Shown piece by piece: positions 2,986-25,923 of a stretch of 36,740 nucleotides of DNA. Where the stretch lies: contig JAUVCN010000017.1 in assembly GCA_030595715.1 (NCBI GenBank), forward strand, positions 1-36,740, read 5' to 3'. Numbering within the stretch: the stretch's first letter is position 1; each line of letters begins with the position of its first letter. The position numbers were made by a program, and so were the translations under genes. The notes under the pieces are model-generated. The model searched no databases. It was not told the DNA's origin and saw only the letters and a list, made by a program, of their open reading frames with translations. Source of the stretch: Thermoplasmatales archaeon (GTDB lineage: Archaea; Thermoplasmatota; Penumbrarchaeia; Penumbrarchaeales; Penumbrarchaeaceae).

Positions 2986-3141
2986 CAAAGAAACTGTACA
3001 AACTCGTAACTTCCTCTCGTCAATTGGGTATTGAAATGGAAGTTCGAGACCCAGTTGAATTAAACCGATGATTTTATTTTTCATTCAACGGGCTTTGTTT
3101 TTGTACAACAATCTTACATTAATCAGGAAAAACAAAGAAAA

Positions 3142-22728: not shown

Positions 22729-23265
22729 ATGGCAAAGAAGATCGAAGGATCCCCTGGCTATGCACCAGGAACACGTGTCTCAACGAAAGACATAGTTCAG
22801 AAGAAGATCTCATATTCCTGGTGGGAGCCAGAGGTTCAGTACAGCTGGAGCATGGGTCAGGCCATGAGCAAGTTCATCATGGGTCTGAAGGATGGAAAGA
22901 TACTCGGAAGGACATGTATAAAATGCGACCGGGTCCTCGTACCTCCCAGAATGTTCTGTGAGTATTGCTACGGTCCCACGGATAATTGGATAGAATTGAA
23001 GGACACGGGTTCGATCGAGACATATTCTATCTCCTATCTTGACTCCGATGCAAGAAGGATCAAGGACCCTATCCTGATCGGGGTCATCTCCATAGACGGA
23101 GCCTCTCCGCAACACGGATTCATGCATTATTTCGGGGAGATGACAAAGGAAGAGATCCATATCGGAATGAAGGTAAAGGCCGTCTGGAAAGCTCCCAAGG
23201 ACAGGGAGGGGGCTATCACTGACATCAAGTACTTCAAACCCCTCAAAGGAGGTGGAAAGAAATGA
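22729..23265 (+). CDS. DUF35 zinc-ribbon/OB-fold acyl-CoA-binding protein 1
   Basis: A 178-residue protein with the DUF35 architecture: helical N-terminus, rubredoxin-like zinc ribbon with CIKC and CEYC pairs (Cys63, 66, 77, 80), and an OB-fold. DUF35 proteins dock on thiolases or aldolases and help bind or channel CoA substrates. The N-terminus carries about 35 extra residues ahead of the ribbon helices. ATG 22729 is preferred over ATG 22723 because GGAGGGG would be too close to the latter. Its end overlaps the next DUF35 gene by four bases. Confidence 0.85.
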   Translation: MAKKIEGSPGYAPGTRVSTKDIVQKKISYSWWEPEVQYSWSMGQAMSKFIMGLKDGKILGRTCIKCDRVLVPPRMFCEYCYGPTDNWIELKDTGSIETYSISYLDSDARRIKDPILIGVISIDGASPQHGFMHYFGEMTKEEIHIGMKVKAVWKAPKDREGAITDIKYFKPLKGGGKK

Positions 23266-23741
23266 CATTCCTGGAGAAACAGACGGACCCCACAACTCCA
23301 ATGCATTGGAACGGTGACATGCAGGCTGATTACTTCTACTCGAACGGAGTGGCGGGTGACAAGTTCTTCAAGCATCTGATGAAGAAGGATACATTCCTTG
23401 CATCCGAGTGCCCGAAATGTGGCGTGATCTTCATCCCCCCCAGGCTCTACTGCGAGGATTGCTTCTGCGATATCCCGGATGAGAACTGGATGGAGGTCAA
23501 GTCACAGGGGATCATCAGGGCTAACACAACTGCAATGATAGACGCTCACGGCGATCCTCTTGAAGAACCTGTTATAATGGCACTGATCGATATTGACGAG
23601 ACCGATGGGGCCATGCTGGGTAGGGTCAAGACAGAAATACTGGACATGGACCTCTGCGGGCTCACGGTCAAAGCGGTCCTTCGACCCAAAAATGAGAGAG
23701 AGGGAACAATGAAGGATATCCTCTACTACGAACCCTACTAG
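23262..23741 (+). CDS. DUF35 zinc-ribbon/OB-fold acyl-CoA-binding protein 2
   Basis: A 159-residue second DUF35 protein, with zinc cysteines Cys50, 53, 64 and 67 (CPKC, CEDC) followed by the OB-fold. It is diverged from its neighbour, as expected if each DUF35 pairs with a different thiolase-like protein or the four form one hetero-oligomer. It overlaps the previous gene (ATGA), has AAAGGAGGTGG as SD, and is the last gene before a terminator hairpin. Confidence 0.85.
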   Translation: MTFLEKQTDPTTPMHWNGDMQADYFYSNGVAGDKFFKHLMKKDTFLASECPKCGVIFIPPRLYCEDCFCDIPDENWMEVKSQGIIRANTTAMIDAHGDPLEEPVIMALIDIDETDGAMLGRVKTEILDMDLCGLTVKAVLRPKNEREGTMKDILYYEPY

Positions 23742-23747
23742 GAACAT

Positions 23748-23770
23748 ATGCCCTGATCACAGGGCATTTT
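23748..23770 (+). terminator. Terminator-like hairpin after the thiolase/DUF35 operon
   Basis: ATGCCCTG (23748-23755) and CAGGGCAT (23760-23767) form a perfect 8-bp stem with loop ATCA, followed by a short T run. It begins 6 bases after the last DUF35 stop codon. Confidence 0.55.
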
Positions 23771-23773
23771 GGT

Positions 23774-24208
23774 ATGAAAAATCATGTAAGCGGTTTGAAA
23801 TATATTTTCATACCCCCGCAAAGCAGTGTATGTTAGTGACGCTCTGTTTTGCTGGGTGTCGAAGTCTCGATCTGGAAATTCCTGATCTTATCACAACAAT
23901 ATCAAATTTCCAGGCCCGCTGAATGAGATGTTACATTGACGGCCTAATTCAGCTGGGACTTGAACTTCCGCATTATGATCCAATTGACGAGATCTTTAAA
24001 TTGCTGGTTATTAATAAATCAATATCGGATTTCAAGACCCGCTCAATGAGATAATCATTGACGATTTAATTGAGCTGGGTGTCGAAGTTGCGCATCAATG
24101 TAAAATTGACGAGAGCAATTTACAACCTCCTTTGAAGAAGGAGGAAGTTACAAGGATCTAATAATCGATGAAAGAGACTTACGAAAAAAACCGCTTACAA
24201 TTTTCATC
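23774..24208. repeat. Long-range inverted repeat enclosing the structured region
   Basis: TGTAAGCGGTTT (23785-23796) is the exact reverse complement of AAACCGCTTACA (24188-24199). Just outside, ATGAAAA (23774-23780) matches TTTTCAT (24202-24208). It could be a closing stem of a large RNA, a kissing interaction, or the terminal inverted repeats of a small non-autonomous mobile element. I see no obvious target-site duplication next to it. Confidence 0.5.
23815..24079 (+). repeat. Three diverged tandem copies of a bulged stem-loop
   Basis: Copies begin at 23815, 23915 and 24038 (spacings 100 and 123). Each has CCCGC on the left and GC-T-GGG on the right, with the T bulged. The adjoining stem is AAAGCAG/CTGTTTT in copy 1 (one G-U), TGAAT/ATTCA in copy 2 and TCAAT/ATTGA in copy 3, so three columns change on both sides together. 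Copies 2 and 3 are also similar downstream, through a GCAT....AATTGACGAGA block. In one frame copies 2 and 3 encode similar peptides (IDGLIQLGLEL versus IDDLIELGVEV) but interrupted by stops and a one-base indel, so a decayed protein repeat is the main alternative. Confidence 0.65.
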
Positions 24209-24216
24209 CTATATTG

Positions 24217-24245
24217 TGAGCCTTTGGCTCATGAGGTTTTTTTTT
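24217..24245 (+). terminator. Intrinsic terminator at the 3' end of the structured RNA
   Basis: TGAGCC-TTT-GGCTCA (24217-24231) is a perfect 6-bp hairpin followed after five bases by nine T (24237-24245). It precedes the promoter of the acyl-CoA ligase gene, so it would separate the upstream transcript from that gene. Confidence 0.65.
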
Positions 24246-24327: not shown

Positions 24328-25923
24328 ATGAAGAACAGGAAATATACTCTTTCAGATTTTCTAAGATTTGCTGCCGAGACCAATCCCGACAGGATCGCCA
24401 TGTTCTACGAAGAGAGGGTAATGACATACAGCCAACTGGATGCATTGGCATCTAAGTTCGCTAGCGGCCTCCTGAAGATGGGGATCAAAAAAGGAGACCG
24501 GGTCGGCCTCTACATGCCCAACTACCCAGAATGGGTAATTGCATTCTTCGGTATCGCAAGGATGGGTGGCATCATAGTTCCCATGAACACCAGATACAAG
24601 ACCAAGGAAGTGGATTTCATAATGAACAATTCAGAGGCTACCGGCCTTATTATGACCTCTGATTTCCTAGGGATCGATTACGTCGATGTCCTTGATGGTC
24701 TAAGAGGCAAAGTTCCGAACCTGAAGAATATCATCGTGTTTGGAGAGAAGATGGGTGAAGGAATGGACACCTTCAACTCGGTTCTTGAACTTGGTAAAGA
24801 CTTCGAGACAGATGAAAAGCTCAAAGAGATCGAGAGTTCCATCCAGCAAGATGATGTGGTTTTCATTCTATACACCTCGGGAACCACCGGAGAGCCAAAA
24901 GGAGCCATGCTGACAAATCTAAACATCTCCAAGAACGCAGAACAGGTTGCGGATGTAATGGGACAGGAGGTCAAGGATGTGGCATTGATCGTGGTTCCGT
25001 TCTTCCATTGTTTCGGCTGTGTGATAGGGATATCAGCCAGTGTTTCAGCTTCCAGTGGAATGGTCCCGATGCCAGCCTACAACGCGGAAGAGGCACTTAT
25101 GTACGCTGATATGTTCGATATCTCCATAGTCCATGGGGTTCCAACGATGTTCATAGGATACCTGGAAGCTCTCAAGAAAAGGGATTATCGCCTCGGAAGT
25201 GTCAGGACCGGTGTGATGGCCGGGGCCCCTTGTCCCGTTGAGATCATGAAAGGAGCATCGGAGAAGATGGGTGCCAATATAGTGATCGCTTACGGTCTAA
25301 CGGAAGCTTCCCCCGTTATCACCATGACCAGTCTCAATGATAGTATCAAGGACCGCGTGGAAACGGTCGGGAGAGCACTTCCGGATCAGGAGGTAAGGAT
25401 AGTTGACGATAACAACCAGCCCGTTCCCGCAGGTGAGACCGGTGAACTCGTGTCCAGGGGTTACAACGTGATGCCTGGTTATTTCAAAAAGGATAAAGAG
25501 ACCAAAGAGGCAATAGACGAAGACAAATGGCTTCACTCGGGAGATCTTGCCACCATGGATGAAAGAGGGTACATCAGGATCGTCGGGCGAAAGAAGGATA
25601 TGTACATCTGCGGTGGTTTCAACGTCTACCCCAGAGAGATCGAGGAATTTCTCTTCAAGCTCAATGCCGTCGAGAACGTGGCGGTCCTCGGTGTTCCTGA
25701 CAAGAAGTTCGGCGAGGTCGGAATGGCGGTCATCAAGGTCGCAAATGGAGAAGAAAGGGTAACCAAGGAAGAGATCATCAACTACTGCAAGGTAAATCTG
25801 GCCAATTTCAAGGTTCCCAGATACATCTGGTTCATCGATGAATATCCAATGACCCAATCCGGAAAGATCCAGAAGTTCAAGCTCAGAGATATGGCATTGG
25901 AGAAATTCGATATAAAAAGCTAG
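24328..25923 (+). CDS. AMP-forming acyl-CoA synthetase (acyl-CoA ligase)
   Basis: Activates a carboxylic acid to its CoA thioester through an acyl-adenylate, consuming ATP. The 531-residue protein has all ANL-family motifs: YTSGTTGEPKGAML (182-195), YGLTEASP (about 321-328), the HSGDLATMDERGYIRIVGR hinge region and GGFNVYPREIEE, plus the C-terminal catalytic lysine in QSGKIQKFKLR. It is full length. Sequence style is that of medium/long-chain fatty-acid or aryl-CoA ligases; the substrate is not predictable. It has its own promoter and lies between the thiolase/DUF35 operon and the 2-oxoacid oxidoreductase operon. Confidence 0.95.
   Translation: MKNRKYTLSDFLRFAAETNPDRIAMFYEERVMTYSQLDALASKFASGLLKMGIKKGDRVGLYMPNYPEWVIAFFGIARMGGIIVPMNTRYKTKEVDFIMNNSEATGLIMTSDFLGIDYVDVLDGLRGKVPNLKNIIVFGEKMGEGMDTFNSVLELGKDFETDEKLKEIESSIQQDDVVFILYTSGTTGEPKGAMLTNLNISKNAEQVADVMGQEVKDVALIVVPFFHCFGCVIGISASVSASSGMVPMPAYNAEEALMYADMFDISIVHGVPTMFIGYLEALKKRDYRLGSVRTGVMAGAPCPVEIMKGASEKMGANIVIAYGLTEASPVITMTSLNDSIKDRVETVGRALPDQEVRIVDDNNQPVPAGETGELVSRGYNVMPGYFKKDKETKEAIDEDKWLHSGDLATMDERGYIRIVGRKKDMYICGGFNVYPREIEEFLFKLNAVENVAVLGVPDKKFGEVGMAVIKVANGEERVTKEEIINYCKVNLANFKVPRYIWFIDEYPMTQSGKIQKFKLRDMALEKFDIKS

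Follow-up and report, generated by a model that had tools for sequence, protein, structure and literature searches.

The region at positions 23771-24245 of the window (the whole stretch of DNA that was analysed, 36,740 nt) is most probably one array of non-coding, non-autonomous, structure-dependent mobile elements. Judged from sequence comparison, the element family appears to be new and lineage-restricted, with transcription terminators and its own loops as its targets. An initial annotation had taken the region for a possible undescribed structured RNA. It was right in that no known family fits: with Rfam 15 at gathering and permissive thresholds, the window and nine loci gave no convincing family match. 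However, the region is not a one-off RNA gene: the element was inserted here and occurs in dozens of copies dispersed over the genome.

Nested cassettes and their fold

The region consists of three nested copies of a three-hairpin cassette (A-B-C) of about 140 nt, arranged as A0-B0-C0(A1-B1-C1(A2-B2-C2)) and followed by a terminator-like tail, D, which belongs to the outermost copy (unit 0). Its neighbours are a gene for a ChsH2-type zinc-ribbon/OB-fold protein (23262-23741) and an AMP-binding gene of the acyl-CoA ligase type (24328-25923). The features are given below, together with the matches to the covariance model R1.

23748-23770, plus strand: upstream gene's terminator hairpin with its T-tract (ATGCCCTGATCACAGGGCATTTT), into which the element was inserted; element-free at the orthologous place in G004 and G001
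23771-23814, plus strand: unit 0 hairpin A0 (GGTATGAAAA .. TTTTCATACC); fold and A-helix covariation
23815-23856, plus strand: unit 0 hairpin B0, with bulged T; fold and covariation
23857-23872, plus strand: unit 0 hairpin C0, 5' half (TGTCGAAGTCTCGATC), split by unit 1; partner at 24155-24184
23873-23912, plus strand: unit 1 hairpin A1; fold
23914-23957, plus strand: unit 1 hairpin B1; fold and covariation
23959-23992, plus strand: unit 1 hairpin C1, 5' half, split by unit 2 after GACGAGA
23993-24037, plus strand: unit 2 hairpin A2; R1 match at 23993-24128, 97 bits
24038-24079, plus strand: unit 2 hairpin B2; same R1 match (23993-24128)
24080-24125, plus strand: unit 2 hairpin C2; same R1 match (23993-24128)
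24126-24144, plus strand: small extra hairpin CCTCCTTTGAAGAAGGAGG closing the nested units; fold; also in C6, C47, C114 and C168
24143-24154, plus strand: C1 3' half (GGAAGTTACAAG)
24155-24184, plus strand: C0 3' half (..GAGACTTACGA)
24185-24245, plus strand: D tail AAAAAACC .. ATTTTCATCC .. GTGAGCCTTTGGCTCATGAGGTTTTTTTTT, intrinsic-terminator-like end of the long form; kept in 13 long-form copies from six genomes
3001-3137, minus strand: second A-B-C element of the window, un-nested, directly after another gene's terminator; R1 match, 129.8 bits

The hairpins, the three diverged copies of the bulged-T design CCCGC / GC-T-GGG (23815-23856, 23914-23957 and 24038-24079) and the intrinsic terminator ending at 24245 were all present as the initial annotation had described them. 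Their placement was read differently: instead of lying nearly end to end, the copies are nested. The loop of hairpin C0 contains unit 1 and hairpin C1 contains unit 2; each interrupted C hairpin regains the canonical 25-nt interval once its insert is removed. The point at which unit 1 enters C0 recurs in C166/L025, and that at which unit 2 enters C1 recurs in C114, C168, C33 and C117. From filled and empty paralogous sites, the internal insertion points were located in the A loop after TTGA, in the B 3' arm at the bulge, and at two places in the C loop, one following TCGATC and the other immediately 5' of the 3' arm (GACGAGA). L009 and L011 form such an empty/filled pair in G000, the window's own genome (3.07 Mb, 95.6% complete), with flanks otherwise nearly identical. 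All of these points are unpaired (loops or bulges), and the outer hairpins stay intact around the insert; the pattern would reflect either the site choice of the enzyme or what selection allows. Several arrays stop abruptly within the 5' half of hairpin B.

The plus strand of 23771-24245 folded at -149.8 kcal/mol compared with -107.5 kcal/mol in dinucleotide shuffles (z -7.4; 0 of 100 as good), and the minus strand gave a z of -5.4 against shuffles. When all three C stems were forced, the fold lay at most 5 kcal/mol above the minimum. The compensatory changes reported in the initial annotation held in larger sets of copies. In an alignment of 16 cassettes of G000, made without structure from hand-picked clean copies at other loci plus window 3001-3137, 24 of 33 stem pairs had changed on both sides; 95.2% of cells were paired, a value equalled by none of 500 shuffles, and sliding the 3' partner reduced the paired cells to 32-50%. 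The initial annotation was right that pairing matters. Among 48 distinct copies, both-side changes were found in 26 of 33 pairs and 93.6% of cells paired, in an alignment that was fitted to the covariance model and is thus biased towards it. One-sided changes were scarce in the 16-copy set (9 vs 106 cells) and low in the 48-copy set too. Because G-U exceeded A-C mismatches in the stems, by 62 to 24 in own-genome copies and by 37 to 16 in relatives, the excess points to the strand read in the initial annotation as the one that would fold, with the caveat of the model-fitted alignment. The cassettes are repeated, structure-conserving and lineage-restricted.

Including tail D, a terminator-like hairpin plus U-run, the long form (A-B-C-D) measures about 190 nt. 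Its 13 copies from six genomes were aligned over 199 columns (inserts removed) with A, B, C and D helices, and it is present in six of the eight family genomes, in four genera, with the C interval fixed at 25 nt. The long-form loci of different genomes have no flanking genes in common and are non-orthologous, and on this ground the idea of one RNA gene kept at the same locus in all of them was rejected. The long form is probably the older, complete version of the element. Its 5' arm has two possible partners, the A 3' arm and a similar stretch of the tail, and in the window the A0 5' arm and loop could likewise pair with the D tail; the arm-tail pairing, at 81% of cells compared with 79.5% in shuffles, was no better supported. 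Long forms of G001, G002 and G005 (L074, L078, L080, L085, L089, L091) have two extra hairpins between B and C, and those of G005 and G001 have in common a GGAAACCGAAG..GGCT..TGTTTTC hairpin.

Copies, empty sites and terminator targets

BLAST gave 56 matches to the region in G000, and R1 gave 78 matches at E up to 1, in about 30 loci. Because the identity of units across loci runs from one identical pair, with others at 91-93%, down to a median of 51%, the family includes both old and recent copies. Since repeats break assemblies, and 14 of the 30 listed G000 loci lie less than 500 bp from a contig end, the true copy number in G000 probably exceeds the count. In the covariance-model search of related archaea, which the initial annotation had put forward as a check, R1 matched all seven other family genomes (2 to 7 matches each), and no match was found in 49 genomes outside the family. 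Among 390 genomes of the phylum (Thermoplasmatota), the long-form model R2 matched exactly the eight family genomes and none of the 382 others. When 84,980 species were scanned for the C-hairpin pattern, the archaeal 25-nt interval occurred only in Thermoplasmatota MAGs, which include M17C-73-04, CSMAG_240, SW_4_56 and Zod_Metabat.266. The bacterial matches to this pattern had an interval of 24 or 26 nt and two matches on viral contigs had a wrong interval; both were taken as chance.

Mobility and target were demonstrated by comparing orthologous sites. The gene pair flanking the element at 23771-24245 is conserved in G001 and G004, with synteny also kept in G002, and the sites in G001 and G004 are element-free. 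In G004 the intergenic sequence is ATGCCCTGATCTCAGGGCATTTCTATTTTTTCTATTCCAGATCG; the window has a terminator hairpin equal to that of G004, then the element, then ATTTCAGATCG. Because G004 carries the terminator without the element, the window element was inserted into the T-tract of the upstream gene's terminator. The initial annotation had offered a leader for the acyl-CoA ligase gene as one possibility; because the orthologous gene pairs of G001 and G004 lack the element, this candidate was rejected.

Further sites were located by a concatenated query of flanking proteins. The orthologous sites of the 3001-3137 element were empty in G004 and G002, and empty sites at other loci were found in G001, G002, G004 and G006. 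The L023 terminator is occupied by a type-1 array in G000 and by a long-form element in G001, but has no element in G006; the L014 terminator is occupied by an array in G000 and by an element of opposite orientation in G006, but has none in G001. By this comparison, related elements reached the same terminators independently in different genomes. Many insertions lie in T-tracts that immediately follow intrinsic terminators, most of them in the orientation of the gene that ends there. A strong GC hairpin (score at least 14) stood directly before 16 of 38 left edges compared with 1.3% of random window positions, a control that includes coding sequence and so overstates the enrichment; the empty sites are the direct evidence. 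A minority of arrays (e.g. C176 and C21) had no recognisable upstream terminator.

Several other arrangements were observed in these genomes. L031 and L166 (C32 and C158 of G000) have the same gene end with different arrays behind it, which may reflect variation between strains or an artefact of assembly at the repeat. A second hairpin repeat of genus g2 (TTTTTTAATTTAAGCTTAAAC..CTCTTAAATTAAAAAA) was seen at L137, L139, L158, L079, L086 and L092 (G001/G004/G006), likewise at terminator T-tracts and apparently nested. At L090 and L081 (G007 and G003), hairpin arrays lie directly 3' of a tRNA gene, and repeated copies of the tRNA 3' end (AAATCCCGACACCTGCA) make stems with element sequence. Possible small RNA genes stand upstream of several elements (L022, L024, L027, L078, L145, L160, L167), also in relatives; they have in common a motif like CAATCCTCTCTTC near a long-range stem and gave no Rfam match at gathering score.

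Known systems and candidate enzymes

In our best reading, the nearest known relatives in kind would be REPINs and mitochondrial double-hairpin elements, while the choice of target resembles that of group IIC introns. REPINs (REP-BIME), which are mobilised by RAYT (Y1) transposases, are likewise short intergenic non-coding hairpins with many copies, compensatory stem changes, mosaic clusters and a presumed mobilisation in trans as single-stranded DNA (PMC3116915). However, the elements described here consist of three different hairpins whose bulges are fixed, not of two inverted REPs; they are nested in each other and target terminators. A search of five family genomes (G000-G004) for Y1_Tnp (PF01797) found nothing, and an IS200/IS605-type Y1 transposase was rejected as the driver on this basis. 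With no cognate Y1 (RAYT) in those genomes and no inverted-REP doublet, the elements (three different hairpins A, B and C) are not REPINs by definition. Fungal mitochondrial double-hairpin elements and GC clusters are also gene-free mobile hairpins with constrained structure that form clusters (PMC4478555 and Paquin 2000, cited therein), whereas the present elements are archaeal-chromosomal and longer, with a terminator target and specific nested sites.

Intrinsic terminators and attC hairpins are the insertion sites of group IIC introns, and the likeness lies in insertion just after intrinsic terminators or into bulged hairpins (PMC4424553). In contrast, the elements have no intron domain, reverse transcriptase or Rfam match and are much smaller; a group II intron by sequence was rejected, as the window and nine loci gave no Rfam group II match even at permissive E-values. 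The bulged stems had also suggested attC-like sites, which were not supported since the AAC/GTT ends vary. IS91/ISCR HUH rolling-circle transposons and their possible non-autonomous derivatives resemble the elements in their hairpin-bearing ends (PMC13393415), and the IS91-like transposon of the archaeal family also occupies the T-tracts of terminators and has a hairpin plus T7AT at its end. However, A-B-C elements have no shared end sequence, and the transposase was undetected in most element-bearing relatives. Compared with a classical MITE (DDE), the region has a perfect 12-bp inverted repeat (23785-23796 / 24188-24199) that is able to close it as a whole; this repeat is not conserved in other long forms, and the T-runs at the insertion sites mask any target-site duplication.

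In G000, an IS91-type HUH transposase (Zn_Tnp_IS91 + Y2_Tnp) is intact and single-copy (C129:18986-20215, minus strand; L199), less than 80 nt from an element array, an adjacency noticed after the fact. The right end of its transposon is a terminator-like hairpin plus TTTTTTTAT (T7AT), and the left end follows TTTTTTTAT, which is thus found on both sides. In G006, the left end, at a contig end, lies in a host terminator T-tract, and the orthologous G000 terminator carries an A-B-C array. A fragment of the Y2 transposase was found in G004; it was not detected in G001, G002, G003, G005 and G007, all of them element-bearing, and the MAGs are incomplete. The left ends of transposon and elements are unlike, and the right ends are alike only in their hairpin plus T-run design. 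Because it has its target in common with the elements, the IS91-type HUH (Y2) transposase may be put forward as the best candidate driver, as a tentative lead only.

Alternative explanations and meaning

For the mobile elements, we infer that the folded hairpins are recognised by an enzyme acting in trans, most probably where replication or transcription leaves the DNA single-stranded, and that the element is joined next to a hairpin and T-tract. Selection for the fold would then give compensatory changes, possibly reinforced by fold-back copying between the arms. It is conceivable, though doubtful, that they represent a genome parasite of a new class, in which the mobile unit is folded RNA or a folded single strand and enters terminator hairpins and the loops of its own kind by means of an enzyme new to such a role; ever larger nested structured RNAs would be built in this way, with every outer stem preserved.

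The long form might instead be a functional stand-alone RNA family, with transcripts that fold and end at their own terminator and with dispersal as a secondary event. Its conservation in six genomes and four genera with terminator and fixed 25-nt C interval, the better fold of the sense than the antisense strand, and a 5' arm-tail alternative pairing that could be a switch are consistent with this. However, the long-form loci are not orthologous, sister loci are empty, the tail-5' arm pairing is at shuffle level, and there is no fixed promoter context since each copy has a different host terminator upstream. We consider a stand-alone RNA rather unlikely, though conceivable for the long form (A-B-C-D, with its terminator). 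Group IIC introns or SINEs offer a model for another route, in which U-ended transcripts are copied into the T-tracts of terminators. Such RNA-mediated retroposition, with a reverse transcriptase acting in trans, would agree with the U-run at the end of the long form, with the abrupt array ends in the hairpin B 5' half, as truncated copies would show, and with a target choice and orientation as in group IIC introns (PMC4424553). Nevertheless, RVT_1 is absent from G000, the genome with the largest expansion, the group II-type reverse transcriptases of G001 and G003 are on contigs without element matches, and no group II intron domain was found; a group II reverse transcriptase was rejected as the driver, and retroposition seems improbable.

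The compensatory changes could also be purely mutational, if each arm serves as the template for repairing its partner during fold-back template switching (quasi-palindrome correction) and the stems have no function. Typical RNA families would generally have more one-sided intermediates than the very few counted in the 16-copy set. Against such correction, not only the stems but also the bulges, the loop motifs (TTGACG, bulged T, bulged A) and the 25-nt C interval have been preserved, and inserts avoid the stems; we regard it as quite improbable. The decayed protein repeat that the initial annotation had allowed for, on account of similar peptides from two units, is refuted for practical purposes: the IDxLIxLGxE frame is not conserved and is closed by a stop within 25 residues in 18 of 34 copies, the length of open frames does not exceed that in shuffles (38 vs 36 codons), and both arms change together.

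The preferred reading, an array of mobile elements, carries a warning, in that covariation among paralogous copies of one genome can mark a mobile element and not an RNA gene. With one family, empty sites and repeated strikes on the same terminators, the elements would provide a clean comparative system for finding the mobilising enzyme. Furthermore, archaeal mobile hairpin elements aimed at terminators would link transcription ends to transposition, and they would show large structured non-coding sequences growing by nested insertion.
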